From the NCBI GenBank assembly GCA_001692895.1, contig KV748208.1, positions 62,001 to 126,000 on the forward strand: 64,000 bases of DNA, read 5' to 3'. The notes under the pieces were generated by a model. That model had not been told where the DNA came from. It did no database searches and saw nothing but the letters and a program-made list of their open reading frames with translations. Made by a program: the position numbers and the translations under genes. This DNA comes from Cenococcum geophilum 1.58. Taxonomy: Eukaryota > Ascomycota > Dothideomycetes > Gloniales > Gloniaceae. Shown here one piece after another: positions 18,326 through 57,497 of the stretch. How positions within the stretch are numbered: the stretch's first letter is position 1; each line of letters starts with the position of its first letter.

Positions 18326-18351
18326 AGCAAGGCGGATCTAACTAATTAGAT

Positions 18352-18374: not shown

Positions 18375-18399
18375 CCTTAATATCTTACGTATTACGTAA

Positions 18400-19535: not shown

Positions 19536-19590
19536 AATAACTACTAGAATCTTATTATTAGGGAAGACGCAGCCGGATTTAGAGGTTCCT
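19536..19590 (+). repeat. Left end of the Starship candidate: direct repeat and TIR
   Basis: Direct repeat AATAACTACTA at 19536-19546, then a short GAATC, then the inverted repeat starting TTATTATTAGGG. A GAGGTTCCTCCCCCCC...GGAGG stem follows just inside. Confidence 0.72.
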
Positions 19591-20116
19591 CCCCCCCGTT
19601 TTAGGAGGCAGTTTCTCCTCACTTAGACCTATATCTATCGCCACTTTTATAATATGCTAAGCATACCAAGGACGGCAGGGTCTCCCTTACTCACCCACTA
19701 AACCTAAAATTGCGCGTATAACCCTATAACGTACCTTTTAAAGCTCCCCAAACGTCCCTTAGCGGCTAACGTTATTTAAAAAGCTATAGATGTCCGCCGC
19801 CTACCTTTATCCTTATCCTCTGCCAAAAGCATTACCCTTATACGACGAAACCTCCCTTTTATACTACGCTCCTTTAATCCTTTTCCTATAGTAGCTATAT
19901 ATATATTTTCCCCTACTATTATATCATTCACTTCTAATACTCTATTTCTAGGTTTCTACCTATAGGGTTTTTTTGCCCTGTCCCGCTCTTAAGAACGCCG
20001 ATCTCCCGTAAAGCCTTTTTCAGCGTTCCTATTAACAGCAGTCGCTCTTAAGCTAGCTTCTGCGTATAGGCAACTAGCAGCTGCTAAAGCACTAAAACAC
20101 TACGCGTTTAACTACT

Positions 20117-22740
20117 ATGCCCTCTTAAAGTAAGAAATAGCGAAATATAGATTTAGCCTCTAGCTTAAACTCCGAATTAGGTAAGCCGTTTTATTCTAAG
20201 CTAGCTTCGGACTTAGATTTAAGCTCTAACTTTAAAACTAGGGAAAACGCCAATTCTAAGGGGGAATATTTATAGTAGAGGATTATATATTATAAGGATT
20301 AAGGAAGGGCAAAGTTAAAACGGAAGCCCTAATCTACTTTTCTTATTAAGCGTAAGTTCCGGAATTAGAAAAAGTTCGTTTATATTTAAACTAAAATTCA
20401 CCTTATAATACTAACGATTTATATTTAGGTTCTACTTAAAAGTTAAGTCTAACCTAACCGAGACCCTTTATTAGTGTGTACCTAATACGTTTAAAACATA
20501 CCTTAAATAGCGCGTAAAGAATTCTTAAATTAAGAAGAAAAGTATAATCTAGGTGTACTAGAGACGAATACTATATAAATTTATAAATATGGTAGGCTAT
20601 AGTATAAACAATAGCGCAGAACTTAATATATAAGATATAGGTAATCTTTAATTTTTAAAAAAAAATCCTGGCTAATTTATTATAGTAGATCCTAACCTAC
20701 TTAACGCTAATATATAAGCTAGATATATCGGAGAAAGAAAAGGATACTATATATATATAGGACTTATATATAATTATTAATACCTATTAGATAATAGACG
20801 CGAAGCCTTACTATAGTTATTTTTAAGTGTAGATAGGAGGAATCCTCTTTCTCTCTAGTGCTATGGCAATAAGACCCTAAGCTCTTATTAAAAGTTTAAG
20901 CATAAGAGGCTCCAATAAAGCGCTTTTATATAAATATATTACAATCCTAAAAGTTCGCGATACAAAAAACTTTAATTAAACTATAACTATTGCCCTTATA
21001 AGTCTCGTGTATATTAAGAATTCTAAAGGCATAGGTAGACGGTATATAGCGACATTAATTAAAGATGGCGCGAATAGTGCTAATAGACCTATAGTAAGAG
21101 GTTTATTTTCCGTCTTAAAAGCATCCTAGCTTTTTATATCCTATCCTATCCTATAAGCCTTACCATCGCAAATAATACATTTTAATACCATTACACTTCA
21201 CTAAAAGAGATTTTTAGACTTAAAATCCTAATAAAAAAAAGAGTCTTAAAGTAAAGTTTAAGAAGGAGATAGAGAAACAACCCATCTTTTAAGATATTAA
21301 GATAATGGCTAATTATAGGGGAGTATTGGACACTAAAGCATTCCCTTACCAGAAATGCCGCGATTACTATATATAGTTAGGCCGAGTAGCTAGGTTTAAA
21401 TAATCGCTTAAACTTTACTAGCTATAATAAGCGTTTAAAAGAAAATTAAATAGTAAGTATCTAATTTAACATAAGTGTATATATTAACTAAGTTTTCTAG
21501 GCACCCTTACTCTAAAAGAGCGAAATTAGATAATAGGTTATTACGGCGATATTTACTAATAGTTTTATTTACCTAATTTAATTAAGCGCGATTTCTAGTT
21601 AATCTACTTTAGGACTCTATTATAGGATAACCTTATCTAATATACCGTATAGATAGGGATCTTAAGGGACGAGCGGGCCCCTATAGGTCTAACTAATAAG
21701 CAAAAGCTTAAATTTTAGCTAAAACTTAATTAACACCCTAATATTCTGCAGCTTTATAAAAAATGAGAGCGATATAAGCAAAAGATTAAAAGCCGGGGAT
21801 ATTACCCTATTAACACCGTAAAGGGAATAAAACTATATAACCGTTATAACAAAGCTAGACGTAAACTTTATAGTATTATAAACGTCCTACGTAAACAAAA
21901 AGAGGACTAGGTTATTCTTAATTTTTATAACACTATTAATAATCACAATATTAAAAGGCAGCTTAGTAGTAGCGTTAGGACGGAAATTCCTACCCATTTA
22001 GCTATATAGTATAAATTTCGCAAACGTGCTACTATTGCTAAACTACTATCTTAGCCGCTAAATAAGCTTAAAGAAGGACACGCTATAAAACTCCGTATAA
22101 AGTTTATCCGCAATCTCGTCAAGTATTATAATTAATAAGAGAGTTAGTAGAATAGGATCCTAAGCAAAGCTATTAGATTTTAATTTAGGTCTAAAGTAGA
22201 CTAAAGTATAATAGGCGTAAAAAGAGGTGCAAGTGACGCTAATACTAGTACCTATTAATAGGCAAAGCGGTAAAAAGAATAGATTAGCTTAAACTTGCCT
22301 TTTTAAAAAAACCTAAATAAGACGCGGAGCGCGGTCCCAATTAAGGAAGAGGGTATTAAGATAATACAGCTGCTGTATCCTATAACGTTTACTAATCTTA
22401 TTTACCTTATCTATATTAATAATAACTAACTTTTAACGCTAAGGCAGACCCACCTATTTATGAAAAAGGATACACTATAGAAGCATCTTAATAATTACGT
22501 TATAGAAGGAGTGTTTAGGTAGGGGTTCTACTATAAGTATCCTTATTACTTAGAGTAGATTAAAGAACTTAAGTATTTTAAAAATCACGCAGCCCTTATA
22601 TATAGCGTATAGCATCTAATTAAGAGGCACTACTAGGTAAGTCGCCTTGCCTATATAAAAATCCTATACTAACCCTCTAGTACCTATAAAAAGGTATATA
22701 ACTAGTAAATTTAGAACTATACGTTCCTTATATATGGAAC
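20117..22740 (+). pseudogene. DUF3435 tyrosine recombinase ('captain'), RIP-killed
   Basis: DUF3435 proteins are the tyrosine recombinases that excise and insert Starships (established for the family). In order: a candidate ATG at 20117; the N-terminal core-binding segment NTFKTYLK.RVKNS.IKKKS (about 20485-20545) and INMVGYSINNSAELNI; LIYKLDISEKEKDTIYI; the first catalytic Arg region AMAIRP.ALI (about 20860), followed by SIRGSNKALLYK; then the RN.IIGYYGDIY..FYLPN block corresponding to the family's MGH...FYxxxN region (about 21520-21590). The C-terminal third has ERYKQKIKSRGYYPI, LYNRYNKARRKLYSIIN, RATIAKLL and a zinc-finger-like tail MKKDTL.KHLNN...FKNHAALIYSV (22450-22620). Frameshifts and many TAA/TAG codons make it non-functional. 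It is the first gene inside the left end and reads inward, the canonical captain position. Confidence 0.88.
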
Positions 22741-25120
22741 TTTTTCTTAATTATTACGCGCTTATCTTATTATTCTTTATCGCTATTTATTTTATTTTAG
22801 TTTATTATTATTTAATCCTATTTTAGTATTTAATAGAATAGATAAAGATCTTATGGAGCTAGTATACCTTAACTAGCGGATTAATTTTATCCGAAATTTT
22901 ATAAAGTTATACTTACGTTAAGAGGCTTAATAATAAAATACGCCTTCTAACTTATTAAAAGGGATAACTATAAAGTAGGAAGATTTAGCAACGCCTTATT
23001 TATACCCTTTAGAATATAACCCTCACTAGTCTATTTTATATAGGTAATAAGAGTTTACCTTACTAGCAGAGGATTTTCTGTTAGAGTTGGCTAGCTAAGA
23101 TAATAGATTATATTAAAGATAAACATCTCTATCTATTTACACCAGATATAAAAATTCCCTACAGCCATCTAGTATGTAAGGAAAGGCATATAACATTAAA
23201 TAGCGTTTTATACTTTAAAAGCCATACTCACACAGTTTATAAAATTAAGTATTAGGTTTTAAAGACTAATTCTATATAGACTTTCTATCTTTATTATAAA
23301 AGAAGTATACTCTATTTAAAGCGTAAGGCGTTCTACTATTTCACGTTCTAGTTCTACTTTAGATATCTATAGTAAGGGTAATAGCATTTTATTATAATAA
23401 GAAGGCTAATAAGTTTAGTTCTAGCTATAAAAACACGGAGGCTATAGCAGATTTGCTTTATCCTCCTTTATATCTTTATAAATAAAGATTAAAGGGGATA
23501 ATTAGGGGGACTAAAAAACATTAAAAAAAGAGATTAAAGACCACTATAACTATTATAGGCGACCTCATTATCGCAGACACAAAAGCTACCTCCGACGCCG
23601 CTATAAACATTACTAGTAAGGTTAGGAACACCTTTCTAAAATCTATTATAAAGTCCGCCTAAAATGCCGCTATAAACACCTTAGATACTATAGACAGCAC
23701 TATAGCTACGGATACCATAGCAATAAATAACAAATATAAATACAATTTATAACACATAATAGTAGAGATAAAATATTTAAAAATTAATAAAAATAAGGGT
23801 GTTAAGGATAAAGATATAAAATTAGAAGTAAAGTTAGTAAAGAAGTCCCTAAAAATAAGGCGTAAATAGTCCGCTTTAGTTTTAATAAATACTTAAATAG
23901 ATAACAGACGGATATAGTTTTATTTTTAGCCGTCTCTCCTAAATAAAATATCGGATTCGCCGTCTTTAATTATCAAAATACCCTATAATATATAATTTAA
24001 AACCCTTACGCAGTTTAAAGAAAATATTATAAAATATACTATAATACACTCCCCCTAGCCTCTATTAGCGGATGTCTTTAAAGGCTATATATTTACTTAC
24101 TAGAAGGAAATAATCTATCTAATAAATGGCAAGAAGGATTGTACCTACTATAGCTAGAATAATACCAGGTATTCCGACCCTTAAGGTTACCTATAATAAT
24201 CTTTAATTCTATATATATTATTCTACGCCCGCTTACCATATTTTAAAGACTAAAATTATAGCAAATGAGGTGTATACTAGAAAACTTTCTACTACTACTA
24301 GAATATATAGTAGTAGCTAGCGTAATGTAGAGAAGAATCGCCTAACATCTAAGCCCTAGAGTAGAAAAGTAAGAAGAATAGTAATACGGACCACCCAGCG
24401 GCCCTTTATAAATATGCCGACAAAACCCTATAGAGATTGGATTTAGCTTCCTATTAGTAAGTTCCTTTAGTATAGCGGCCTTATAAACCTTAGTAGCTAA
24501 CGCAATTACTAATAAAGATCTTAGTAGCACGGCTATTAGTTATAGTGTGTCTTAAGGTAGATAAATAATCCGGTGCTTTATACACCTAATTAAGGCAGCA
24601 ACTACGAGTCCGGGGATAAGGAAAAGAAATACTATATTAAAGATAAGATGCCACTAAAGGCGCTATAGCTTATAATACTATAGGGCGATAGTATGGAAAA
24701 TTATAAGGTAATAAATAAACACTATATAAACGTACGCAGCAGCTATAGGTAGAGGAGCGTATATTACAGTAAAGGAAAGAAGGCAACTATATTCTTAGCC
24801 TAGTTAGCCTATAGGCCTTATAACTCTACTAGTAAGCCCTAAGTTTCGTAATAGTAAACGGAACCCGGGCTTAATATAGTTAAGCTATTAGTAAAGTAAT
24901 GTTAAAGCACCTACTTAGATTTAGGATTAAGTTAATTCTTATAGGAATATAGGAAGAATCCGATTAGTTCCTAGCAGGAAAGGCTTTTAGGGTATAGAAC
25001 CTTAATTAAGACTTATATTAACTTATCCTAAAAATCTCCCGTTTATCTAGTTTAAGTAATTAATTTAACTCTTTAGGGACGCGTTACTAAGAAGGCTAGT
25101 ATATAAGAGGAGTTGCTTTA
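22741..25120 (+). pseudogene. Unrecognised coding remnant downstream of the captain
   Basis: Plus-strand frames read coherently from about 23530 (SDAAINITSKVRNTFLKSI) through ADVFKGYIFTY and CTYYS.NNTRYSDP.GYL (about 24080-24190) into a long Gln/Arg/Ser-rich, probably disordered stretch to about 25100. Stops fall where Gln is likely, so this was coding before RIP. I do not recognise the family; the low-complexity part could be a gag-like or regulatory protein. Bases 22741-23400 show no convincing frame. Confidence 0.4.
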
Positions 25121-25131
25121 TACTAGTATAG

Positions 25132-25175
25132 ATTTAGGGCACTAAAAAACCTATAGGTTTTTTAGTGCCCTAAAT
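25132..25175. repeat. Perfect 44-bp palindrome
   Basis: ATTTAGGGCACTAAAAAACC on the left arm is mirrored exactly on the right around TATA (centre 25153/25154). It has no mismatch, although surrounding DNA is heavily mutated. It may be a terminator-like hairpin, a recombination remnant, or two abutting inverted ends. Confidence 0.85.
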
Positions 25176-27148
25176 TTATATTAGCTTACCATTACTTAAA
25201 GCAAAAGGTTTTACCCACTATTCGCTATTAGGACTTCTTATAATACCTATAAAATAATTAATATTACTATAAAACTTAGAGCTGCTCTAGTATAAGAAGA
25301 GCTAGCGCTTCTAGAGCCGAGCGTAAGTTTACCTATTCTATGGATATTACCTCTTTATTAAGCTTTTTTACAGTTACTCCAAAAAGTAAATAAAGTTCTT
25401 AAGTTAGTTTATAAAGCTAAGTCGAAGTTAAAATCTTTTATAAAAAAAATAACTTTTAGGGTTAATTTTAAAGAAACTAGTGTTTTGTAATTAAGCCTAT
25501 TAAAGATATACTATTCTAAGCCTAACCCTAAAGTTATAATATTTCTTACTAAAGTTTAAGCCGGAAAGACGGCTTTTTAGAACCCTTAAGTTTAGAAAAC
25601 CTGCATAGACAATTAGAAGCGCTTTTTTAGAAATCCGCTTAATTATACCATTTTTATCTACTTAGTTCTTAAAATAGAGAAAGTACACTACTAGCTCCTT
25701 TGTAGATTTAGTTAAGCAGTTCTATAAAAGCTCTTAAAAGATAAATATATAGCGAGCTTAATAGCCAAAAACTTCTATGGAATTGGCTTAAATACTAAAA
25801 CCCTATTTAAAGACTTTATTAAAGAAATAGAAGATTTCTTTACTAGCGGAAGTAAGTACTGCTTAATTAGGGAGGTACTAGGAGGGCCTAGTATCTTATT
25901 CTTCCTTCCTTTAAAGATAGGGGATAGAGTGTAAGTTTAGTAGTAAATAGTAGTTATTTATATACTAACCGTAACCTTAAATAGGAAAAGAAGTTCCTAA
26001 AGGTAGGTTCTAACTATAACAAATTAATCCAAGCCTTTAAAGCTGCGGGTATTTTAGATATATTAAAAGAATATTATATACTTACCGAGAGCTTAATTAA
26101 AGAAGGCATTAGTATAGTTAAAATCCCTATAATTTAGTGTGGATACTAACTTTACTAGGTGCTACTACGGCTATTATATATAAAGCGATTAATTAGATTC
26201 CGGAAGCTCTAAAGTAAAGATTAGAACCTATTAAGCAACTAAATAGTAGGTAACCTAGGCGACCTAAAATCTAAAGAGATAAGGGGAACTTACTTTTAGT
26301 AAAGTAGAGTGCCGGCACTATAAGGCAAAACCAATATAACGTAGTAAATCCCGTTACTATATTCTAATAAGCCGCTCTAATACTGTATATATAGGAGGTA
26401 TATGGATATACCACTAGAAACAGCACCGGTAAGGGTAAGTAAAACTATATACCTAAGGAAATTCTAACTTCTTATTAGGAAATCCTAAAAATAATTTATA
26501 TAATCTATTACTAGGCTATAAAGATAATAGGGCTTAGCTATTTAATATATTAAATTTAACGGATAAGGGAAGAGGTATACTATATAGTAAGTGCTATTAT
26601 AAATGCCTTTTATAACCAGTACCTAACTTTAAGAAAGACGTATATAAGCAGGCGTAAACACCTGGGCTAAATAGACTATTTAGCGAAAACTAGCTATAAA
26701 TTTAGATGGGAATAACTTACGGCAACTTAGGGGTCCCAATAAACCCTATATAGTAGGAGGTGTATTATAAAGGCATAATAGTTTTATCTAACACTAAAAA
26801 TGGACCTAAAAGTTTCTTATTAAACCTATTTACTCCACTAATAGACGCCGAAAGCTATTTAGCTATACTAGATAACGGAATAAGTAAAGAATTATTAACT
26901 CTAATATAAAACGAAGTCCCTTTTACGCTAGGGATCCTTATAGACTTTAAACTACAATATAATTACTTTAATAAATTCCCTATATCCTTTAAACCATAAT
27001 ATAACTTCTTTAAAACATTAGACTTCGCAAATCTTAATATAGAACTATAGCCGTAAGCTGCCTACTAGGCTTTTCTTTTAGACCGGCTATAGCGATAGGA
27101 TAAGAAACACTACCCCGTTACTAATAGCGGCTGGTTTACTAGTAGTAT
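25176..27148 (+). pseudogene. Unrecognised gene interrupted by LTR element C, 5' part
   Basis: Coherent plus-strand coding: DFIKEIEDFFTSGSKYCLI, then REVLGGPSILFFLPLK (about 25810-25925), later FLLNLFTPLIDAESYLAIL (about 26810-26870) and KKHYPVTNSGWFTSS right up to 27148. The stop pattern is RIP-like. The frame appears to continue past element C from 33545. I cannot name the family. It is Starship-candidate cargo by position. Confidence 0.4.
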
Positions 27149-27374
27149 TGTGGGAGGGTACGACCACTCTTAGATAGGAAAGTCACAGTGCTGTCTGTCT
27201 GTCGGTCGGTCGGTCAGTCGTCAGTCGTAATCAATTAGTAGGAAAGCAGTCAGTAAGAAGAAAGGAAAGAATGTATTCTCTGTGGGTTGTGATGTCTAAG
27301 GAGGGAAGCTAAAGGCTCTATAAATACAGGAAAATGCCAAGCCACTAAGCAGTGGTCCTTTTTACCCTACTATA
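27149..27374 (-). repeat. 3' LTR of element C
   Basis: 226 bp. Starts TGTGGGAGGGTACGACC on the plus strand and contains a GTCTGTCTGTCGGTCGGTCG run and GGCTCTATAAATACAGG, a TATA-like motif. Confidence 0.9.
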
Positions 27375-27559
27375 TACCTCCCTCACTAAGAACGTTGTCC
27401 CCTAACGTTCTATATAGAAGAATAGCTAAATAAAAGCATAGTGAAAGCAGAATAGAAAAAGGAAAGCATATCCCTAAAAGAACGCAGATAACCTCGTCCT
27501 TAGCCCTCCTATAGAACTATTCCACGGCGTCCTTCCGTTACCTATAGCTAAGATCTAAC

Positions 27560-30390
27560 CTAGTAACTAGGGCAGCAGTAAACTAGAAATAATAACGGCA
27601 GCAGTAATAGTAGTAATAGTAACGGTAATAGAAATAGTAATAAAAGCAGATAGTTGGCGTGGTAAGATAAAGCAAAACAGTCAGTAGTAGAACAGTCGGT
27701 GATAGAACAATTGGTAGAAGAGCTCGGTCCGTGTAATAGGCGGTAGGACATCTAATAGCAGAACTTTTAATAGCAGAACACTTAGTAGTAGGACAGTCAG
27801 TAGCAGTTAGTTAGTAGCAGTCGGTCGGCGGAAGTCGGTCAGAATAGTAGCGGTAAAATAGTCAAATCGGTGGAACAGAACGGTGGAACAGTAGCAGTAG
27901 AATAGCTAGCCAGAACAGCAGTAGTAGTAGCAGTAGAACCGTCGGTTGGCGGCGGTCGGTTGGAGTAGCGATCAATAAAAACTAGAACGGAACAGGTTAG
28001 TCGGAACAATTAGGCGTTATAGCAGATTTAGTAGATCTAGTAGTAAAATAGATCTAGTAATGGTACAGATCTAGAACAGTAGAGACAGCAATTGGTTGAG
28101 ATAGTAGGGACAGAACAGTCGGACGGAATAGCGGTAGCAGCGGCGGCGGCAGGGTAGTCGATCAAAATGGCAGAGGCTACGACCCGACTCGATGGTTCGG
28201 CTGGTCGTTTGATATTAAGACTTTGCATCTAGCTCTGCATCGGTCTGTATCGTATACGGCTCTTAATTAAGGCTCTATCCGTGGCGTTGTATCAGGCCCT
28301 GCATTGTTAAGCTCTATGTCCGCATCGCTCTGCATCTGGCTATGCGTCTAGCTGCGCATCTGTAGCTCTGTATTGCATAGTCTACGTCCATGTCTGTATG
28401 CCTACGTTAACGACTGGCCGAAGACTGTCTAATTGGTCGGCGACGACGTGCTGTAACTGATCATTCGGTCGTTTAATTAAGGTAGAAAGTTGGCCCGGTC
28501 AAAGGCCCTAATTATCCTAATTTAGATGCGGAGATAGCGTTTAGCTGATCTAGACTTAATGAGGCCCTGGCTTGACTTAAGGTGTCTTCTGCTATATATA
28601 TGACTGGGGCTTTGCATCCGTAGACAGTTGGTTAAAGCTTCCGTGTAGACGTCTGATTGGTCAAGGTTCCGCATCTGCTATTTAATTAAGGCTTCGCATC
28701 TATAGGCGTCCAGTCAAGCTGCCGTACTGTTGTCGAATTAAGGCTCTGCACCTATATGCTCTATATCTGTAGACTCCGTGTACAATTCTGTGTGAGACTC
28801 CGTGTAAAGCTCCGTAACTATGTTTGTAGGAAAGATCGTTCTGGTTAACTAGTCCGTGGGCGTCAAGACGGGCGGTAGTTGATTAATATGGAGGTGGGTA
28901 GTCAAGGGAAGAGGCTCTCGCAGAGGCTCCAAAACGTTAATTAACCGTGTTTTTGACGTTCTTTTGGCCGTGTACTGGTTTCCTGATTAGGTCTAGTGCC
29001 TTAGTGCCTGCGTGCCTGCGTGCCTGTGGTGATGCATCTTTGGCTGCCGATTGAAGACGTCTGACGGTGACGGTGACTGATTTGATTTAACTATAACAAT
29101 GTATAATTAACTGACGTTTAAATAGGGTATTAGGTCGGCCCGACCGAAGGCTCTAATTTGACGACTTAACCTGTATAGGCGGCGTTCGACTAATCAGGAT
29201 TTGACTAAGGCTCTGGCTTAACTCAAGGCGTCTTCTGCTGTATGTACGACCTGGGCCCTGTACCGTAGGTGTTCGATTAAGCTTCTGTGCAGATATCCGA
29301 TCGGAGCTCCATATCCGTAGACGATCAATTAAGACTCTGGCTGTGCAGTCGTTTAGTCAAAGCTTTATATCTATGTAGTCAATTGATTAGGGCTCTGCAT
29401 TCGTATAATTAGGGCTCTCAATGTCCTCTAGACGTCTAATCTAAAGACCTGTCTTAAGGCTTCCTTCTTTACGAGCACTAACGGTAGCTTCCTCTAAACC
29501 ACTATAATAGGCCTAGTGCTTTTATAGGACGTCCTTAACAGCTACTTTCTTCCTTTTCTAAACCGTCCTTGCTCTTAGCTTCTTCGGTATATCCTTAGGC
29601 TTTTACGGCTGCTTCTTTGTTCCCGCTGCTAGCAGTACGCTTGTGTATCCTTAATCTTCCTCTAGCTTAAGAACCTTTTTAGGATTGTCTTCTGCTTTTA
29701 GTCCCTTAATTACTGTTCTGCTAACTCCATGCTTTGTTAAGTCGTCCTTTAAAACTATCCTATGGCAGCCCCTTAGCTGTTGTGACTACCTCCGTCGTAT
29801 ATCCCTTGCCCTTGTGTCTATAAAACAGTCCTTTATCAAGATGACCTCTAAGAAAAAGCGCTGGCTCCTATACGTCCAATTCCTGTTTCCCTTATAATCC
29901 TCAATAAGGCCCTTTACTAGCTTAGCTAGATACGGCTTGGTCCTATCTTTGGTCGCATAAGAATAGCCTAAGTATGTGGTGCTTTATCACTAATATTGTG
30001 CTGCTGCCTTTATATAAGTCCCTTCCTTATCACGGTGTCCGTTCTCATCGTGTAGCCGGTGCAGTACTAAATTTGGGTGGTAGGGCAGAGCTACAATTAG
30101 CTGTTGTTCGAATAAGGAACAAAGTCGGCCCGATCAAAGGCTCTAATTTAACGATATTTGACTGATTCAATTCAGTGACGGCGACGTGCTAACATCAAGG
30201 CTCTAGCTTGATTCAACTCTTCAACCAGTTGTGGCTTCTATACGGTCGCTCGACTAATCAAGGCTTCCGTACAGTCATTTAATTAAGGCTTTGCGTCTAG
30301 TTCTACATTTAGCTCTGCATCGTACAATCGGCTCTGTATTTGTGCAATCAATTAAGGCTCTTAGTATCCGTTCTTATCATATAGCTGCAT
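27560..30390. repeat. Low-complexity interior of element C
   Basis: 27560-28150 is built from CAGTAG/AACAGTCGGT-type units. From 28260 to 30370 the phrase AATTAAGGCTCTGCATC recurs in degenerate form (near 28265, 28683, 28736, 30278, 30351). No reading frame with protein character was found; short frames such as 29685-29897 are probably chance. Confidence 0.6.
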
Positions 30391-30396
30391 CCTTAA

Positions 30397-30530
30397 ATTT
30401 TAGGGGCGGTGTAGAGTTTTACCGGCTCTATTGCTGAATAGACTAATCAGGATTTTCCATCCCTGGGATAGAAAATCGCTATTAGCTCGGCGATAGGCAG
30501 TGAGCTAAACTGATATCTTTACAGTAAGCC
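30397..30530 (-). repeat. 3' module shared with Gypsy B
   Basis: Matches 18193-18325 in the same orientation (GCGGTGTAGAGTTTTACC start) and contains GATTTTCCATCCC..GGGATAGAAAATC. It is less mutated than the Gypsy B copy. Confidence 0.75.
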
Positions 30531-30899
30531 GTCGCGACTAACGCGTCTTAACGCGTTGCGATTAAGAAAGTAAACAAAAAAAGGAGCCTTAGGAAATACT
30601 GTAACTAAGTAGATAAATAGAAATCTTTTATGCGGCCGTCACCTGCGTCCCCTCCCCTACCTTAGAACTTGACTGTCCCCTAGTCGAATATCCTACACCT
30701 ACGGCGGAGCCTGCTTTGGAGCTTGCTGCGGAGCCTAGTTGCACAGTTGTCTCTAAAGTCGCGGCCAAGGGTCGGACGATCCATCCATAGGTACCACTTA
30801 ATAATAGTCTTCCCTAGCTTCAGCTGCCTTCTCCATAGGCCGTGACCTAATCTGCATGTAGTCTTCTGGTCGTACATTGCTCTCCTATGGCTTAATAGC

Positions 30900-45515: not shown

Positions 45516-45519
45516 ATAT

Positions 45520-45782: not shown

Positions 45783-45899
45783 GGATAACCTAATCTTCCG
45801 CTAGGCCCTTATACCCTACCATTCTATATAGGCTTTAAATTTCTATAAGATATGTAACCTACTCTTTAGCCTATTAGAAGCCGCCTTATACCGTCTAAA

Positions 45900-46700
45900 T
45901 AGAGGCTATAGGAGAATTAATCCCCTACTCTAGCCAATCCCTTACTTAAATAAGTCCCCTATTTAAATAAATCCCCTACGGGAGCCAATGCCTACGTATT
46001 TCGCCGCCCTATAGGAACTAATCCCCTACTTTTAATAATCCCCTATAGGATCTAATCCCCTACTCTAATAAATCCCCTATGGGATCCACTCCCCTATAGG
46101 ATCCACTCCTCTATAGGATCTACTCCCCTATAGCAATAAATCCCCTATAGTAATAAATCCCCTACGCTAACGAATCCCCTATAGGTGCCAATGCCTATAT
46201 ATTTTACCGCCCTATAGAAACCAATCCCCTACGGCTTATATTCCCATACGGCTTTTACTCCCCTACAGGATCCTATAGCTACGTTTTCCTCTCCTATATA
46301 GAAACTAATGCCCTACGGCTTCCGTTCTCCTATTCCTAGATTTATAAATACTATTAGCTATATCTTCTACTCCCTTACGGAACAAATCCCCTATAAATTC
46401 CGTTCCTATATATAGTAACCGTATCTTCTACTACCTTATAAGAACCATATCTTATAGCTCCTACTCCTATATAGCTTTTACTCCCCTATAAAAACTAATA
46501 GTAATTTCTTCTACTCCCCTACGGAGACTAATCTCCTATAGCTTGCGGTTCTCTACGGGGATTAATACCCGCTTTCCCCGTCGCCTTATAGCTTTTAGTT
46601 CCTTATAGAAACCAACGCCTATATCTTCTACTCCCCTATAAAAACCAATACCCTATAGCTCCCGTTCTCCTATTCCTAGATCTATAAGCAATTTACCTAC
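45900..46700. repeat. Minisatellite of CCCCTATAGGA(T/A)-type units
   Basis: More than thirty degenerate copies of AATCCCCTATAGGATC / ACTCCCCTATAG with spacing of about 18-24 bp. No coding interpretation was found. Confidence 0.75.
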
Positions 46701-46879
46701 ACTATAGCCTATTATATAACCTTATTGTTATAAGAGTAAGCAAGTAATTCTAAGAAAGTAATAAGTAATAATGCCACCAGCTACAAGATCTATAAGATGT
46801 ATTTAATACTATATATATATAAGCGAATCTACGTATATAAGTTCAAATTCTTAACTAATTTAGCGCCTTTAAAGTTACT

Positions 46880-49440
46880 TTTAAAATTTTAGTTTAACGT
46901 AAGAGCCATTCTTAAATACTTATATATAAGTTTCTCCCCCTTACTTTTAGCTAAGCTGTAACCAATCTATATAGTATTCTTAATCTAATATAGTATATTA
47001 GCACTAGCCTTAAAACTCTCACTTAAATATTACCTTACCTATCTTCCGTTTAATTAATAGTCTAAAAGCCGCTCCATATCTTTTTTAGAGATATTAGTAG
47101 TAGTATTAGCTTACTTTAGGAAGGTCTTTTACACCTACTCTTTTACAAGTCTCTTTAGCTTATTATATTTAAATATAAGATATATTCTGCTCTATATAGC
47201 TATATTAAATATAGTAATCCTATTTATTATAAGAAATATAATGCCTTAGAAATACTCTATCTATCGCAGAAAGACGGATACTAGGCTATTACGTTAGACA
47301 TTATTTAAAGTTCTTTCTATAAGAAAGATATCGGCCTCGTTTAAAAAAAGGACAGCGCTCTAGTGGTAAATGTTCTTAACTATTAGAGTTAGGTTTTGTT
47401 CTAAATAGGTTAGATCTATATTAAGGTCTCCTATATAAGCCTTATTATAGTTAAACTAGTATATAAATATACTTATAAAGGGAAACAAACCACATAAAGG
47501 GGTCTCCTCTAAGATTTAGTAAGTGCTTTAACTGTTAATATCTTTTCTACCCTAGGTAGGCCACTAAAACGGTTAGCCTTTAAAACAGCCAATACCTTAC
47601 TAGAAAACTTACTGTAGTAAAAAAACTAGGCCTTTCCCCTTCCCTTTAATTATATTATTAAACTTTAATTTCCCAGACCTAGACTAGTAGCTCTTTATAA
47701 GTCCTTAAAGCACCATTTTCTTATCCTCCTTAATTACGAGTAACTTAAATACTAAGGCATTCCATTTAATGTCCTTAATATTAGCGACGGCAAATTTACC
47801 TATTAGTGCTTGTATTAGTATATATAATTCGCTAACTCTAAAAAAAGTATATAGAAAGCCTAACCCTATTTTTTATCTACCAAACTAAAGGCTAGGGCTA
47901 TTAGTAGACAGATTAGGTACTTATTGTCTCCTATCTCCTTAAAAACTAAACCCTAATTCTTTACGTCCCCTTACTAATTAGTCCCTTAATTAATTACGCT
48001 TATTCCATACGCATCTATAGCGATTAGTTACTTACTATAGTTAAAATTCCAACAATAAAATACTATCGCGTCTACTATAATACGGCCGCTCGTAGAAAAT
48101 CTTAACAGGCTATCTTTAGTCTAGAAAAACGCGATCCCTTTATATTTACGGTGGTTAATATTTTTTAAAGATATAAACTTCCGGCTATTGCTAATAAGAT
48201 CCTACTTTATCTCGGCTTGTCTCTTATAACGCTTTAGCAAAAATACTTTAAAAGATATAATTTTTATAGTTAAACGGAATTCCGGAATAGAGAGGGTGGG
48301 TTTTACCTTACTAAACGCCTTCCTATTATAACTAAAATAGTAACAGTTAAGTTCAAAGCTCTTTTTACCAAAAAGTAAGGTTTTAAAGTTGCCTAAATTA
48401 TATATAAGGCATCTTAGTTAATCTAAGCCTTCGTAAATCATAAGGATATGCGTATTTAGTTTAAATAAGGCCCAAAGGAGATTAAAATTAATTTCGCTAT
48501 AGTGCAGAAGCGGTAGGAGACTATTAGTTATAGGCGCAAAATAGTCTTTAAGGAATCTTAGTAACCCCTAAAAGTACTTAGCGCTAATTAAGTCGGGAGA
48601 AAGACTCTCCTGGTATATTTTTAACTAGGGTAGAAAATTAAATATAAGGTTTATAGGAATTTAGAAGTTAAATTAAAATAAGCTATATTTATAAAAAGGT
48701 TTACTTACTATAGGCTTATCTTCCTAAAGGGAGATAGCTTATACGCCGTTTAGCACCACCTATAAGGCATCTCTCACTTCTCCTAAATTTATACTTAGGT
48801 ACATACTATAGTCTTTCTTGTCCTTTTTTAGCTTAAAGTTAATATCTAAGTTAATATGTTTAAAGGCACCTAAGAAACAGACCAAATTTCTTCTAAAGGA
48901 TATAAATATACTAATTATATATATTACGCTCACTTAACGTATCCGGCGAAGTCTCTATAGTCTTATACTAGCAGTTTTATTTGTCCCAGCTATAGCAGAT
49001 GCTATATTAGCGTATTTCTAAGTATGTTTTAGGGATTTCGCAAGCATACATCTCATTTAACACCTTAACTTTAACCTTAGAACCTCTTACTTTAGGTATC
49101 TCTTTAACCCCTAAACTCGTAGGGGGAGGTAAAAAAGGTAGAGGAGGTAGAGGAGGTTAGGCCGCTTAGACTATCTTTAATACAGCTATAAGTACTTTAA
49201 CTATAAGATGCTGCGCTAACTGCCCATAATATAGATACGTTTAACTTAGGCTACTAGGGGGGGTATTATAAGATAGTAAAGGCGCTGGCGTAATAGGCTT
49301 AGATATAACTAGCATTATTACTCTATAAAGCTTTAGTAACGTAATACTAATCTAAAGAAGAAGCCGAGTGGAAAGAGGAGCTAAATAGTATTGTTTTTTG
49401 GGCTAGATCTACTCTTTTCTTATATAATATAAGCTATACT
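46880..49440 (-). pseudogene. AAA+ ATPase with fungal N-terminal domain, degraded
   Basis: Minus-strand order: an N-terminal domain near 48400-49100 (MYLSINLGEVRDAL, then SPDLISAKYF.GLLRF, EINFNLLWALFKLNT, ILMIYEGLD) typical of the fungal AAA ATPases whose N-terminal region is annotated DUF7025; a middle segment RKFISLKNINHRKYKGIAFF and GRIIVDAIVFY.WN; then the AAA module. Walker A is degraded (GLPRVEKILTVKAL, about 47510-47560, from GPPGVGKTLTAEA) and Walker B reads LFLNEADIFL (about 47320-47350, DEAD-type Asp changed to Asn). RNSLVSVFLR.IEYF.GIIF and SRIYLIFKYNKL follow as sensor/arginine-finger region. Substrate unknown. Inactive by RIP. Confidence 0.82.
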
Positions 49441-52274
49441 ACAGGTATATTTACACCCCTCTTCTAGTAATAGGCTACCCTCCTCAATTAATCCTAGCAA
49501 ACTTTAGTTAAGATATGTTAATATTATCTCTATTATAGTAAATAAAGCCATAGTATATATACTTGCCGTACCTATAAAAATAGTCCCCTAGCTTATATAC
49601 GGGATTTTAACTTTAGCACTAGAGCGAGCTTAAAAAAAGATATTACCTAAAGTATAGAAGTGCTCTAATTAATATATAGGAGATAGGCAATATCTTAGGT
49701 CGAATTAAAGATATAAGTATAGAATTGGTACTAGTAATACTGGCTGGATTACAGTAAGCGATCTAGCTATGCATTATTTAGCTAGGGGAAGTGGCATATA
49801 ATTAGGCTAACCGTCCCGTCTCATCTTGTCTTATCTCGTCTCGTCTTATCTCTTCCCTTCCCTTCCCTTCCTCCTTCCCTTCCTCCTTCCCCCTTCCCTT
49901 CCTCTTTCCCTTTCTATCTCTTCTTATCCCGCTCTTTCTCATCCTAGCTCTCTTTATTCTTCTCTTTATTCTTAGTTAAACTTCTAATAGCGCTAAATAA
50001 CTGGTTTTACGAGCTACTTAAGGAAAAAAGAAAGACGTTTAATGCTAATATATATCTATTACCCTCCCACCAGAACAACGCGTTTAAATTATACCTTAAG
50101 GTACTATAAGAAAACGCAATATCCTTAAAGAAATAATTAAGCTCGCGATAAAGTATAAAGCTACATACGCGCACTCTATTAACGGACGTTTTTATTAGCT
50201 TAGGTCTTAAAGTATTCTTCCTATATACTTTAGCAGCGCCTATCTTAAAGCTAGCAACGGTATTAGTAAAAAACCTCCTCTAAAAGCTTTAAGGATAGTA
50301 GGAGAGTTACCCCTACCCCTATAGTCTTATAGTTGCTGCGAGTATACTTTATAAGGCTAATTTAATTAGCACGTTAATTCCTTCGCCTCTAAAACGTCTA
50401 TCTTTAAAGGTAAATCCCTCTACTAATATAAAAGAGCTTTATATTTTAAATGAATTATTAATAAATATTATTAAAGGAACACCTAATATTAGCCCAAAAC
50501 TCTTGGTTATTAGAGAGGCATTTTAAAGCTCCGATCCCTTAAAACGCTTATTAAACGCTTAGTATATAAGTCTTAGGTGCTTATTAATTAGTTACTTATA
50601 TATTTTAGAGCCAGATTTGTTATAAAAGGAAAGTATAATCTTATCTAATAATTCCAAAACCAATGGTTGGACACCTTATTCCCTAAATTTAATATATTAA
50701 TACTTATCTAAAATAAACACCTCTTCTAAAAGTCCTCTAAGCGCTATTATGCTAGTATATTATTAAGTTACAAATAAACCACTATTAAAGCGTCCCCGGT
50801 TAGAATTATAGCAAACTCTAGGTCTATAAGATAACCTTTAATAAGATATTATATCTATAGTTAATATTAAATAGGAAATCTAATATTGCTAGGGGAAGGC
50901 TAGTACTTATCTTTCTTATTTATAAGGCGCTATATAATTAAAAATCTCCTTAAACCATTTTGCACTAGGATAGAGATAAATAATTTATAAAGAAAGGAAA
51001 AAAAGAGTGGAGGACTAGCGGTTATAAATTGCCTATCTATATATATACTAGAAATAAATAATAAGGACGCTCTTTTATTAGTTAGGATCGGCTATAAGAA
51101 TAAATAAAATATCTTTAAATTATTTAGTTTAGGGGACCTAGATACTCTAGAGTTTTAGGAAAATACTATAAAAGAAGCTAGAGATTAACTTTTATCTATA
51201 ATAAATGGCATATATCGCTTTAGGTTACTACTTATTACTACCTCTTTGCTAACTTAACCCGTGCCCTTATTATATAACATTTATACTTAGTAAGAACCTC
51301 TCTTATTACTTATCTATCTTTTATACCTAAATATTTAACTAGCTTCCCTTTACCGTCTTTAATATTATATAATCTGCCTTTAAATATTATAGTTATATCC
51401 TCCATTATTTTAAATATATAACCTCCAATCTCCTCCTATTCCCTACTAAGCGCCTTATCCCTAGCCTTAGCGGATATAATCTATATAGCTAGAAATACGA
51501 CTATATAAGTTGGCGGGACTAGTGGCTATAAAAGAGAGATATTCTATAGACGTATAATATTAAGTAAATATTATCCTTTATAAAGCGTTCTTAATTATAG
51601 ATAGCTGTCTAAGGAGGAATAGCGGCTAATTTAGGAATTTGTTTTAAAATAAAAGATTATAAAATATATATATATTAAAGCACAACTATTATAAAAGATA
51701 TAAGTAATTAGGCATATACTACGCGGAATAGCTAAGCTAATATTTACCTTAATAGTAAGAATAGAATTACTAGATAACTGCGAGAGGCAGAATATAAGAA
51801 GTATAAAAGGAGGTAGATTATAGGCTTAAACGGAGAGCAGCTTTACGGAACTGCGCTATAAATAATTAGTAAAGTAGGGTTAAAGGAAATTTATAAGGGA
51901 AAATAGAGGTATTACTATAGTTAATAGGTTCATAGCTACTTAGTCGTTAGTGCCTAATAGAAAGGCTTATATAAAAGAATTATTAAGCAGCTACCTCTTA
52001 AACTAAGCTGCGGCCGGATTTACCTTACCCTACTATTAAAGCTTTTTAGCACAGAATATTATATATATAATTAGGCCACCAGCCAAACAATAGGTAAGGC
52101 GTCCACTATAATACGCATTTTAACTATATATTAGCTAAAGTCTAGGGGATTAGAGTTACTAAATATATATAGCCCCTCTACTAACTAAAATATCTTTAAG
52201 GATTAGATTCTTGTGGCTTATTCTTATTTATAAGGCAAATTAACTATAGCCAGTTTATACGCCTTTACGTTATA
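49441..52274. other. RIP-degraded sequence with a pyrimidine tract
   Basis: 49811-49975 is a CCTTCC/TCTCGTC-rich pyrimidine tract on the plus strand, perhaps the upstream region of the minus-strand AAA gene. 51580-51830 reads briefly as basic coding sequence on the plus strand without a recognised family. The rest shows no coherent frame. Confidence 0.45.
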
Positions 52275-52289
52275 TATATAAGTTAATTA

Positions 52290-53284
52290 GGCCGTCGAAA
52301 ACGGACTCTGCACCTGTACGTGGTGACGGCTACGAACCTAAGTCTTCGAAGTTCAGACTCAGAGCCAACGCAGAGACGTCGCACAGCGTGCAATACGACC
52401 TAGTGGTGGTGGTGGGTATTGTGGGCGGTGGTGAAAAGTTTTTACATAGGATGGTGAGATCTCGAAAACCACCACTGAGTGCCCCTTACGAATAATAGCA
52501 ACACTATTCTCCTATTAAGGCACCTGTACGATCCAACATGGATGCGCGGCATTTGATAATATCCCCCGACCCCCAGTAGAGAGCATCGACGACCTCTTAC
52601 ATCAACGAACGAACAAGCAACGAGCAAATATACGGCCCCTCCTAACCCCTAGGGCGATCGCCCGCGGAGCTGCGGTTACTTGCTATTAACTATTAAATAC
52701 TACCTAGCAGCTTGGATAATACCGTACGGTTTTCCTATCTCCTTTTAAGGAGTGGTGACCCTTAGCAAGGGCCTAGTGACTGGGGCCTAGGCATAAAAGA
52801 TACTTAGGCATACACGTCCCGCTCGCCTTTTAGTATAGTGGTAGTTTATAGATGAATCCCCCTTACGCCTTCGATAGGCCTTAGGGGGGGGAAGGCATGG
52901 CGTATATGGTAATAGTTAACAAGAGATAGCATATAGGGGGTGGTTAAAATACGGAATATAACTATAAGTGTACAGCAATCGAACGGCAAGACCTAGCTAG
53001 GACGTAGTAAACCCTAGCTAGGATAAGCTAGAGAAGGAAGCAGTGGTTTCTAAGGAGTTCGAATATCTAAGGAGGACAGGACGTAGCCGTAGGCCCGTAG
53101 GGCCGCCGCTACGGACGGATATGGCAAACCGGGGTTTTTTATCCTACTAAGGTGGCTTATAGGGTTTTTCCTCCCCTAAACTGCAGGGTTTTCTTCCTGT
53201 AAATTATAAGTTTTCCCCCTGTGACGGAGTAGTCTGCGTGGGCCTAGATAGGATCCGTATTAGACGTTAATTAAGAATTACTAC
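52290..53284. other. GC-richer island between 15-bp direct repeats
   Basis: 995 bp of less mutated DNA flanked by identical TATATAAGTTAATTA (52275-52289, 53285-53299). It contains a tRNA-like segment at 52826-52896 and, at the right, three loose ~25-bp repeats built on GGGTTTTTCCTCCCCT/GGGTTTTCTTCCTG. A 61-codon minus frame (52442-52627) has no recognised family. It looks like a separate late insertion, possibly a SINE-like or solo-LTR-like element; the class is not determined. Confidence 0.5.
52826..52896 (+). tRNA. tRNA-Asp-like sequence (pseudo-tRNA or SINE head)
   Basis: TTAGTATAGTGGTAGT at about 52832-52847 equals the A-box/D-arm of eukaryotic tRNA-Asp. A TTCGATAGG string at the expected B-box distance (about 52879) is followed by a G-run. 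The acceptor and anticodon stems do not pair convincingly, so it is not a functional tRNA; a tRNA-derived SINE promoter is plausible. Confidence 0.4.
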
Positions 53285-53689
53285 TATATAAGTTAATTAA
53301 TTATTAACGTCCGACTTTATATTATTCAGACTACTGCTTAGTTTTAACTATATTACGTAATTTTAATTAGCTGGCTAAGTTATAAACGTAGTTTTAGCCT
53401 TATATTCTCTATTGTCCATAGCGTTATAAGTAGTAATAAGTAGCTCTTGCTTACCGCCCTTAAAAAAGTAATACTCTTACGGACCTTTTTATACGGCCCT
53501 TAAGCTTACGGCTTTAAATAACATTATGGTTAGGCGATTATATATAGTATAGCCAGCAGTGTAGTTTGTAAGGGCTTAACTTTCTTAAATTAGAAATTAT
53601 AGGACGTTATAGAAAATGCGCCATAAATAGAATAAGCCAGAAGTAGAACCTAAAGCTAAAAAAAAATCTCCAAACTAGAAAGAAGGGCA

Positions 53690-55050
53690 CTATAATTACT
53701 ACTATCTCTTCCGCCTAGTAGGCCGGCCCCCTTTCTTCTACGCGGTAGGCCGGGCCTTTAATTTTAAATAGTAATACGCCTATAGTAATCCAAGACTTCT
53801 TTCTAAAAAGCGGTCTTTAATCTATTCCTATAGAAGATTACATCCTTTCTTTAATTTAATAAGTAGCGCGTCTTCCTCTTTAGTAAATTTTATTCTAAAC
53901 TTTGGCCCTTAGGGCTTTAGCTCCTAGGGCTACTTAACTAGGTTAAAAGGTAAAGGGAATCGTTAAGGAAGGATATTTAGTATATATAACCTATCTTTCT
54001 AGCGCCTAAAAGCTGCTTAGAGTAAAATTTCTTCTAAATTAGCATTTAAGGCGGCTCCTAGTATTACTTTATTAAAGTTAGAGCCAGAAATAGGGCTTAG
54101 TAGCGGTTTTTAGGTATAGAGGCGATTATATATAGGGGATATAACCTACTTATAATAATTGCTAATAAGCGCAGTGCTTTAGTTAGACGTATACGTAGAT
54201 AAAATTAAAGGGGAATAGTAAAACCGCTAGAGATAATACTTTGTAGTATACTTTGCCTTTAATTAACTAGTAATAGGGGTTAATAATCCTCGTCGCCCTA
54301 TACACCCGCGGGCCTTATTACCCTTATTGCTATTACTGCTGTTATCGTCCCCAGAGTCGTTATTATCCGTATTATTACTATTATTACTTCCGTCGCTATA
54401 GTTCTCGGCCTTATCTTTATCTATAACGTTCTCGCCATCTTTATTATCGCTTTCTTTAGCTAAGCCATTAATAAGATCGTCTAGAATATAATTATAACTT
54501 TCATTAGCCCTATCTTTTAGTAGTTTAGTATTATAAGGAGATATATAGTGCTGAGGGGAGAAGCTAGTAGGCCGCGTAGTAGAGGCTACTCGCTCCTTAA
54601 TACCGTCACTATTGTTAAGGCCAAGGGTAGAAGAGTTAGAAGGCGTGGTCCTCTAAGAAGTAGGTAACCTTTATTACTTCTTAGGTTATATGCTCTCGCT
54701 ACTCTTACTAATAAAAGTATTAGAGATATAATTAATACTATCTAGTTAATTAAGCTAATTAGACCTTTACTTCTTTAACTTCTTAGCTCCTAAAGACTCT
54801 TAACTGGTAGCTACTAATATCTTAAGCTTTTGCCTAAACTGCGGAGTAGTTCTAATATAACGCCCCTTAGCTAAATTATCCGTTTAATTGCCGTCTAGCG
54901 TTAAGGGTATAATACGATTATATATAGGTGCGCGTACCTCCTCTTCTAGCGCTTCTAACGAAGGTAGCTCTTTATTATCTTTATCGCCCTTACTACTACT
55001 ATTATTCCTATTATCTACTAATTATTAAATAAGGCTATTATAAATTAAAA
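53690..55050 (-). pseudogene. Myb/SANT-like DNA-binding protein, degraded
   Basis: Minus-strand reading: a long disordered N-terminal and middle part (EALEEEVRAPIYNRIIPLTL; an Asp/Asn/Ser-rich acidic tract encoded around 54290-54450; KARGCIGRRGLLTP), then a C-terminal Myb/SANT-like helix-turn-helix at about 53750-53910: RIKFTKEEDALLIKLKKG, then NLL.E.IKDRF.ERSLGLL.AYYYLKLKAR. It ends in a basic GGRPTRRKR. Upstream sequence to about 55750 may belong to it. It lies near the right end of the Starship candidate and points inward. RIP stops at Gln/Trp codons. Confidence 0.65.
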
Positions 55051-57442
55051 GGGGAAGCGTATACCTAATCTACGAGGTGTCGGTTGATTATCGGCTTTAT
55101 TAACTTCGTCGTTAGTATTACTAGCTTTATTACCCTTAGTTTCTAAGTCCAGATCGGCTATATTATCTTTAATAACTATTAGATTTGCTACTAGTCGTTA
55201 AAACTATATATTTAGAACTGCTAGGGAAAAAGGGAGAGTAGTAGGGTAATTACTGGGATAATTACCTTAATTACTTCCTCTAGAGACTTAACTGTCATTT
55301 TCATCCCTATAGAAATCTTCCTTATTATCCTCGTTATCCTTATCATCCTTATAATACTTATTATTAGCTTTTTTATAATTATATATAGGGTCTATAGGCG
55401 CTTTATTAGACGGAATATCTAAATTAAGGCCCTAGGTGGAATAATATGCTATTAAGTATCTAAGCTTGCAATACTTCTTAACTTTTTAGGGGGAAAAGAG
55501 GTACTCCCCTACTCCTCCTTATAGGCTTACTGCTCGCGTTTTTCTTAGGGGCTATAATTATATAGTACTAAGATAAAGCTGTTAATTTTCTAGGGGGACC
55601 AGTATAGAAATTATTCTTATTAAGCGAAATTTTAGAAGGAATACGAAATAAAGACTAAGGTGGTACCAACGTTGTTATTATTAGAGTTGCTATTATTTTA
55701 TAGCTTTTAAAAGCTTTAAGGGGAATTAAAGGTCTTTTTAAATGCATGTTAGTCCTCCCTTTGCTACTAGCACTTGCCTATTACCCCTTACCCTTTGCCC
55801 CTCGCCTAGGTTTCTTATTAAATTAAAGTATTTAATATATGCGCCTCCGGTATAAACTAGGGTTAATTGCCGTTTATAGGGTATAGAGGTTTATAAGGGC
55901 TTAAATTCCTAGCACCTAATTAACACCTTTAGCAAATTGCAATTAAACCGTATTTGCCTATTTAAGCTAGTATATTTAGCTCTAACACAGCTATCGCATC
56001 TAGCCCCTTATTAGGAGTTAGTAGCTTAAATTCTTTACCCTTATTCCTTAGTAAAGGGCAAAGCTAATATATCTATTTACTTCCCAATAATACTAATCTA
56101 GCTAATCTTCTACGCCGCTTATATTAATAGGATATAAAGCCCCGCTTATATATACGTGTTGCGAGCTATCTATAATAAAAGGAGGTAGTGTTATTATTAG
56201 TAGCGGGCGGGGTTCTTTAATACTAATCGCCCAGTAACGGATACGCCTGCTATTTATACGGTAATCGTGTGCAGATATATAAATAAGCTAGGTAAAGAAC
56301 TGTATAGGGTGCTATATAAGGTACTATATAATGCTCGCCCTCCTAACATAACTAGCTGGTATTAGATTCCTTCGCAGTTATACTATAGTGCCGCAGATCT
56401 ATTATGCGCCCAAAAGCTATAACCTTCTAATTTTAATCTAGGTGGTTCCTACTATAGCCCCATGGCTTAGAAGGCCGGATTATTAATCCTTTACCGCTCT
56501 ACTATTAAGCAGTTAGGTAGAGCTAATAGCCCCTTAGCCCTAAACTAGTAGATTAAACGGTGTCTCCGAAACATCTATAGTAATATAACTATACCGCTAA
56601 ATAGGCATGTATAGCCACCTAGGCGACACTCTATATAATATCCGTTTAAATAATGCCTAATATAGCCTCGTACGGGGTAGTTACTTAAATTAATAATATC
56701 TAGCTAATTTTCCACTGGGTAGCCTAGTAGGCATACTAGCTATAATATAGGTAGCTTTAGCTATTGGCAAACGCTAAAGCGGGCCGTTTAACTAATAGCA
56801 TATCCTAGGTAAGAAAACAGCGCGTAGGTTAGCTAAAATAAGTGCAACGTAAGCTCGCTTAAGCCCTTAAGGGGGCGGATACAGTACGCCTGTCCCTCCC
56901 TACCTTAGAAGGAGATATGCGGTAGAGTTAAATAAGACAATAGTGCTAACGCGGCTAGTAACTACGGAATTCCCCTAACCCCCTTCCTATGGGACGGTTG
57001 CGGACCAGCGCTATCTAGAAGGCGAAAGGAGATAGGGTGTATATAAGAGAGAGAATAGAATTATAAGGATATAGATACGCTTAGCGGACAGAGGCGGGAA
57101 TTAGAAAAGGAGGCTAAAACTATTTATATATCACCGTAGAATGGAGACTTGCCTATCGGAAAGGCTATAGTTAACTATATTAATTATTAATCTAAGATAT
57201 AGGGGAATAAAGTAATAAGCGGGCTGGACTTATATATGTATTAGCGCTAAAGGGACGGTAGAAATGCCTTAATACGACCGTGCTAGGGACTAGCAGCAAG
57301 AAGAGGAGGAGGCGTAGTGTTAGAAGAAAGGAAAGATGGAGGATAAGAGGAAAAGTAGTAAGAGATATGGCCTTTTATGGTTAAGGTTAAGGGGCAGTCT
57401 TAGCTTGGCCGGGGTTAACAAGCGAGGGCGCCTTGCCCGTAA
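55051..57442. other. Right-end region of the Starship candidate, no clear gene
   Basis: 55051-55780 may hold the 5' end of the Myb-like gene. 55780-57442 shows no coherent frame on either strand; it becomes less AT-rich from about 56800 (GGCGCCTTGCCCG at 57428). Confidence 0.4.
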
Positions 57443-57497
57443 AGGAAGCCTCTATTTCCTAATGCAGTTTTCCGCATAATAAAATAACTACTATAAT
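57443..57497 (-). repeat. Right end of the Starship candidate: TIR and direct repeat
   Basis: The inverted repeat reads, on the minus strand, TTATTATGCGGAAAACTGCA followed by a TAGAGGCTTCCT block. It is followed by the direct repeat copy at 57483-57493, extending to 57497 with one mismatch to the left copy. Confidence 0.72.

Follow-up and report, generated by a model that had tools for sequence, protein, structure and literature searches.

The window analysed here, a stretch of 64,000 nucleotides (bases 62001-126000 of contig 33) from the 177-Mb, 162-contig genome of the ectomycorrhizal dothideomycete and tree symbiont Cenococcum geophilum 1.58, contains a 37.9-kb insertion that interrupts the integrase of a Gypsy retrotransposon. 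We conclude that this insertion is very probably a Starship of a new family, which reached about 50 copies of a ~27-kb core in waves and was then subject to repeat-induced point mutation (RIP). Starships are giant transposons of Pezizomycotina, 15-700 kb in size, with an inward-reading DUF3435 gene, the captain, at the 5' end, imperfect terminal inverted repeats and cargo (PMC12134995; PMC12153272).

Captain and insertion boundaries

The features that define the element and its host retrotransposon are as follows.

19542..57488, + strand: most likely extent of the whole element, placed from the junctions of 35 copies and 320 uninterrupted target sites
20102..22759, + strand: RIP-ruined DUF3435 captain, with the DUF3435 match at about 21227-22003
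20860..20928, + strand: AMAIRPXALIKSLSIRGSNKALL, part of the captain read in frame 20101 and holding its first conserved arginine
21413..21568, + strand: captain stretches LYXLXX and IIGYYGDIYXXFY
19536..19541, + strand: left half of the target core, AATAAC, Gypsy-derived; the left end of the element, TACTAGAATCTT, comes next
57483..57489, + strand: element-borne right core, AATAAC, and the first target base, T
19549..19590, + strand: putative left imperfect terminal inverted repeat (local alignment)
57443..57485, - strand: putative right imperfect terminal inverted repeat (local alignment)
17808..61703, - strand: host Gypsy element, with probable long terminal repeats (LTRs), RNase H, H2C2, SH3 and the integrase frame

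In the element, the captain precedes all other genes at the 5' end and reads inward, its frame starting about 0.6 kb inside the left end. With stops read as X, frame 20102 matches PF11917 at 63.4 bits (E 2.5e-17; cut-off 25.8), so that the DUF3435 captain proposed in the initial annotation of this DNA was recovered by profile search despite RIP. When the captain end was searched against the genome as DNA, 36 of the 42 rows ran from the left end through the captain. Relatives of the captain carry TRP, LRR and MGH...Y stretches, which we take to be the active-site boxes of the recombinase. Judged by its sequence, the captain is a DUF3435 gene for a putative tyrosine recombinase. Where relatives read LYQLRR and MGHHGDTYQQFY, the window copy has stops in place of the LRR arginines and a tyrosine in place of the histidine; with these conserved arginine and histidine positions lost, it cannot work as read. 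A PDB sequence search with a captain relative returned just weak chance matches to haemagglutinin chains, at E 0.6 or worse.

Direct repeats at 17808-18116 and 61395-61703, 93% identical, fit the LTRs of a Gypsy element and flank the insertion on both sides. A single LTR-like pair thus brackets the insertion, which assigns its two boundaries to the same event within the same element. To the right lie an RNase H (58275-58559; 77.8 bits, far above the Pfam cut-off of 29.8) and an Integrase_H2C2 match (57612-57770; 23.2 bits, under the cut-off of 25.5), and to the left, in matching frame, a Tf2-1-like SH3 match (18768-18947; 28.4 bits, under the cut-off of 30). Joining 19541 to 57489 yields an integrase in frame, ...SNRFTNIIV/VINRLIKI..., with RIP stops remaining. 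The closed site, searched as a 31-place pattern with at most three mismatches, matched 320 places elsewhere in the genome (145 forward, 175 reverse), and the reversed-pattern control matched 0; among 100 matches listed, 20 were without mismatch. These 320 uninterrupted sites presumably lie in other Gypsy copies. Together, the restored frame and the closed sites indicate that the insertion was precise and that both boundaries belong to it, in agreement with the boundaries and the restored integrase described in the initial annotation. Each edge of the element is uncertain by a few bases, the crossover probably falling within ATAACT.

The inverted ends of the window element align locally over about 45 columns with a score of 35, compared with a shuffled mean of 17.7 and 1 in 1000 shuffles reaching 35. 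Over 35 copies the mean score is 26.2 (minimum 15), compared with 14.2 for shuffled ends; both sets of controls used single-base shuffles only. Among Starships in general, such repeats are frequent but some elements lack them.

Copy number, target site and mutation

Allowing at most three mismatches, we found 49 left ends and 50 right ends in the genome, and none with reversed-pattern controls. A same-strand right end lay within 150 kb downstream of 35 of the 49 left ends, while the pairing controls gave 0/49 for a wrong-strand right end downstream and 3/49 for a same-strand right end upstream. The resulting 35 pairs span 27.1-111 kb (median 42.9 kb, nested insertions included), to be set beside the 15-700 kb of Starships. 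The captain-end search yielded 42 alignments (40 of 458 candidates scored), of which 39 are 86-91% identical, one is the self-match of the query and two have 80% and 74% identity; the right-end search yielded 40 alignments (40 of 155 candidates scored). The window element is therefore one of about fifty copies and not a lone fossil.

Individual copies show further structure. Right-end variants with 2-3 mismatches, of the TTTCCTTAATAA type, occur at C7:2347277, C8:1323116, C17:1079428, C17:1556900 and C50:33970 and may mark a subfamily. In the C58 copy (L022), the first ~30 bases of the left end are swapped for other sequence and the rest is normal, a possible end exchange or deletion. At C3:747245-754656, sequence matching window 37.2-43.5 kb follows about 1.1 kb after the left end, as if the captain had been deleted. 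The contig of the window also carries a related 77-kb element (C33:1227567-1304377; right end 0 mismatches, left end 3), whose captain has ~70% DNA identity to the window captain and little RIP, while the element's interior has RIP-mutated stretches; the protein cluster of this captain comprises 62 contigs in the protein database.

Junctions were read for all 35 pairs, with T+1, A+8 and the left-core bases lying outside the search patterns. To the right of the element, T is found at +1 and A at +8 in 35/35 copies, and T at +9 in 30/35. The left cores are ATAACT (20), ATTACT (10), ATACCT (3), ATTCCT (1) and ATCCCT (1). The motif AT-W-M-CT-N6-A, with ATAACT as its recurrent core, fits all 35 junctions, one W being C. 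The right core reads ATAAC in 35/35, AATAAC in 34/35 and, with T+1, ATAACT in 35/35, a constancy due partly to selection because the ATAAC bases were part of the search pattern. As to where these sites lie, 40/40 of the 1.5-kb flanks fetched are RIP-mutated by the usual index limits, 17/38 match DNA adjoining the window element (the window's own two excluded) and 25/40 match another flank.

An 11-bp direct repeat, AATAACTACTA, is present at both ends of the window element (19536-19546 and 57483-57493), as the initial annotation had reported. Among true pairs, 22 of 35 have an exact direct repeat of at least 6 bp, compared with 62% when ends are mispaired, and a repeat as long as 11 bp is present in 1/35 copies only. 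Since true pairs do no better than mispaired ends, the repeats reflect a match to the motif, and the 11 bp of the window are luck; a real target duplication is ruled out by the mispairing control.

The closed element ends, ATAAC + TACTAGAAT, themselves fit the motif ATWMCT-N6-AT, as would be expected if a circle recombined site-specifically with its target. We propose that the captain would join the element ends into a circle whose junction carries this motif, and that the junction would then recombine with a chromosomal copy of it, probably by a crossover within ATAACT. The left core would thus stay from the target and the right core would come from the element, the short direct repeat being the motif shared by both. 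The landing pads seen are transposon sequences of some age and high AT content, the Gypsy integrase of the window being an example. By repeated insertion of this kind, the family would have risen to its ~50 copies of a ~27-kb core in several waves. The window copy also holds a 4.0-kb unit and was entered by an LTR element and a 1.0-kb insert.

Most of the window is strongly RIP-mutated, with (CpA+TpG)/(ApC+GpT) mostly at 0.25-0.55; the signal is weaker mainly in three places, namely the first 2 kb, the interval 8-12 kb and, at 28-34 kb, the nested LTR element. Divergence was assessed in 20 captain-end copies, the window included, taken from the 42 captain-end rows. Mean pairwise differences were 10.2% for transitions and 0.61% for transversions. 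The base following the 559 C/T columns was A in 264, T in 153, G in 93 and C in 49, and 198 of the 530 A/G columns were preceded by T; the substitution bias thus leans to the RIP context and is not confined to it. The copies sampled are ruined by RIP, and the stops in the captain together with these RIP-like differences bear out the earlier description of the window element as RIP-dead. Transversion distances lie between 0.03% and 1.6%, and two subgroups are tightly clustered, which suggests amplification in several waves. Conflicts between 169 of 741 informative transversion column pairs show that exchange between copies or repeated mutation took place.

Anatomy, shared cargo and competing explanations

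Searches of the genome with internal stretches of the element gave the following anatomy.

37836..49357, unstranded: backbone block common to many copies, parts of which also lie behind other captains
41013..41908, + strand: 126-bp x 7 minisatellite in the backbone, with a stop-poor frame
43999..45198, + strand: FunK1 fungal protein kinase (PF17667), RIP-mutated cargo (E 5.5e-69)
48232..48513, - strand: DUF7025 domain (PF22942), cargo (E 3.1e-12)
53285..57488, unstranded: right-end block of the family, its last 1.1 kb 82-87% identical in 39 other places scored
23144..27139, unstranded: 4.0-kb nested unit with ACCAG...CTGGT ends, which occurs apart from the element elsewhere
27149..33542, unstranded: later LTR retroelement with TG...CA ends and TAGTAT on both sides, less RIP-mutated than the rest
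52290..53285, unstranded: later 1.0-kb insertion with a ~15-bp flanking repeat, which the C8, C58, C63 and C7 copies do not have

Without the three nested insertions the window element would measure about 26.5 kb, and the smallest pairs span 27.1-28.3 kb, giving a core of ~27 kb. The small size for a Starship noted in the initial annotation is thus accounted for by a ~27-kb core padded to 37.9 kb, and the accessory cargo that it described is represented by the FunK1 and DUF7025 remnants. The copy at C25:2069852-2116111 shares the position of the 4.0-kb unit with the window copy and is continuous without the LTR element. No domain was found by a Pfam scan of the six frames of 22800-27100 or by six-frame domain scans of the nested LTR element, and an Inhibitor_I71 match at 53-57 kb was discarded at 17.6 bits, under the Pfam cut-off of 22.1.

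Repeats within and beside the element also deserve mention. The minisatellite frame at 41013-41908 has 8 stops/kb, compared with mostly 20-45 in other element frames, which may reflect either a repeat protein or base composition. Minisatellites of 17 bp and 33 bp (window 45936-46266 and 46582-46660) lie near the left edge of a stretch shared with other captains (45.65-49.36 kb). Outside the element, 197-bp direct repeats at 1291-1487 and 7442-7638, 97% identical, are probably the LTRs of a further RIP-mutated retroelement. Next to it, at 7.7-8.2 kb, is a stretch with fewer mutations that resembles a carboxylesterase, its relatives matching PF00135.

The genome also holds other captains. A DUF3435 profile search in which 100 of 346 candidates were scored gave at least 165 match rows, with two rows for many of the captains. 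By match pattern these fall into at least four sets: the window family, a second family (B), a set matching model positions 1-210 and a near-whole-model set (C62, C21). The positions 1-210 set includes a nearly open captain at C49:752543-753905. For family B (L015), scoring 40 of 182 candidates brought out at least 40 captain copies. Comparing its locus with the window captain gave no protein match at E 0.001 and only a 134-bp DNA match just downstream, while two further captain families match the window captain at ~23%. A 412-bp stretch inside the 4.0-kb unit (24690-25102) recurs a few kb downstream of many B captains.

Parts of the window's backbone block lie behind these other captains as well. 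The 45.65-49.36 kb stretch is found 25.3 and 25.4 kb (C29, C11) and 25.8 kb (C9) behind B captains, and a similar stretch lies 43 kb behind a captain on C10; the 37.8-45.0 kb stretch, collinear and in two pieces, starts 26.3 kb behind a B captain on C1. The captains on C29, C11 and C1 were assigned to B by DNA, those on C9 and C10 by DUF3435 match pattern only. For the first stretch, window-family captains lie ahead of 13 of 21 rows, other captains ahead of 4 and no listed captain ahead of the remaining 4 (6 short rows of 27 were dropped). For the second, the corresponding counts are 20, 2 and 12 of 34 rows, drawn from 40 long rows of which 6 were in counted elements, with 51 shorter rows excluded. 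Captains were taken from among the DUF3435 matches listed, which include a few of the window family. The shared stretches are most simply read as the result of cargo or captain swapping. Tentatively, we suggest that a Starship chassis may here have become a high-copy parasite, net replicative, with ~50 copies and nearly fixed cargo; that parts of it may have come under a second, distant captain in dozens of copies, captain/cargo exchange placing the cargo block in two target-site niches; and that RIP may have stopped both.

A plausible minority view is that the shared 37.8-49.4 kb stretches are independent transposons, inserted separately in the window family and in B. Identical match edges (window 45651-49357) in three copies behind other captains fit this view, as does the fact that no single B copy was seen to contain the whole block. 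In addition, 4 of the 21 and 12 of the 34 rows have no listed captain within 90 kb upstream, one of them having a wrong-strand DUF3435 match. However, the longer collinear stretch in the B copy on C1 and the agreement of strand with the captain in 6/6 rows behind other captains speak against it, and the DUF3435 list may miss captains.

Several observations weigh against the broader conclusion that the window element belongs to a large Starship family. Unpaired ends number 14 of 49 on the left and 15 of 50 on the right, and some of the long pairs, which reach 111 kb, could be nests or wrongly matched ends. All copies were counted within one genome, that of C. geophilum 1.58, and counts from the DNA searches and the DUF3435 list are lower bounds. 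Among ends taken from the DNA search, ATWMCT is present in 18/20 left ends (L019 and L022 deviate) and T+1 in 19/20 right ends (G in L047), with A+8 in 20/20. Only the 264 of 559 C/T columns noted above precede A, looser than the textbook RIP context, and the DUF3435 match, in a single frame, covers model positions 135-376, or 242 of 418. Lastly, five same-target groups account for 13 of the 35 copies and could include segmental duplicates.

These common target flanks would be explained if a few insertions had been multiplied to ~50 copies by segmental duplication or chromosome rearrangement and not by transposition. We consider this very unlikely, as the 35 pairs occupy 27 distinct targets with small shifts allowed, or 28 by a stricter rule, all on one motif. 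Moreover, one shared target is itself high-copy, with 320 uninterrupted copies, so that more than one landing is to be expected at it. The C16 and C25 copies occupy a site resembling the Gypsy integrase site of the window.

It is more improbable still that the structure is a chance nest of unrelated transposons, in which a small Crypton-like DUF3435 element and its neighbours have fortuitous ends. The window is transposon-dense, and three insertions are nested inside the element, yet its ends recur 49 and 50 times, with 35 pairs in fixed order and strand, the closed site is found 320 times and the backbone blocks recur on the captain strand. Cryptons are small fungal tyrosine recombinase DNA transposons without cargo, an identity ruled out here by the smallest pair, at 27.1 kb, and by the presence of cargo. 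An assembly error that fused two insertions, one at 19.5 kb and one at 57.5 kb, a possibility that the initial annotation had itself named along with separate insertions, is scarcely credible, the same structure being assembled on many contigs and the Gypsy halves matching in frame inside one LTR-like pair.

Comparison with known Starships

The C. geophilum genome paper reports 81% repeats and contains no occurrence of tyrosine recombinase or Crypton, nor does it mention Starships. In the open literature searched, Cenococcum and Starship are mentioned together in one paper, in unrelated passages only, the Starship surveys of 2022 and 2024 falling outside this scope. About 50 recognisable insertions in one genome provide a rare within-genome sample of target sites, which fixes the motif and exposes the cargo. 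This sample shows that the direct repeats of the window family are motif matches and not duplications. It suggests that a Starship can spread through a genome as ordinary transposons do and then undergo clean-up by RIP, and the cargo-block stretches behind two captain families offer a natural test of captain/cargo swapping.

The window family resembles the Starship superfamily in captain position, short repeats, putative imperfect inverted ends, size, cargo and insertion in transposons or AT-rich DNA (PMC12134995; PMC12153272). It differs in its ~50 copies per genome and its small core of ~27 kb. Starships are described as cut-and-paste elements (PMC12134995), and their direct repeats as 2-12 bp long (PMC12153272). 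In Aspergillus fumigatus they are reported as single copy per strain with few exceptions, while some other species readily accumulate multiple copies (PMC12153272). RIP has been raised in print as a possible limit to Starship copy number.

Among named Starships, the Hephaestus family has a canonical target, TTAC(N7)A (PMC12153272), that resembles the ATWMCT-N6-A of the window family. In the window family, however, W is A more often than T (ATAACT 20, ATTACT 10, n=35); when the Hephaestus target is compared directly, A+8 and C-T are found in 35/35 copies and the left core TTAC in just 10/35. The derelict RIP-mutated Starships (Pi-rho, P. variotii and Spiromastigoides; G. tritici type A) have heavy RIP and presumed immobility in common with the window family (PMC11623301; PMC11905480), but those described are present in single or few copies, whereas the window family numbers dozens. 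Starships with common cargo and different captains have likewise been reported (PMC12134995; PMC11623301), as seen here behind two captain families; unlike in the published swaps, both captain families here are high copy. Precedents thus exist for RIP, for multiple copies and for shared cargo, and it is the scale that stands out in C. geophilum.

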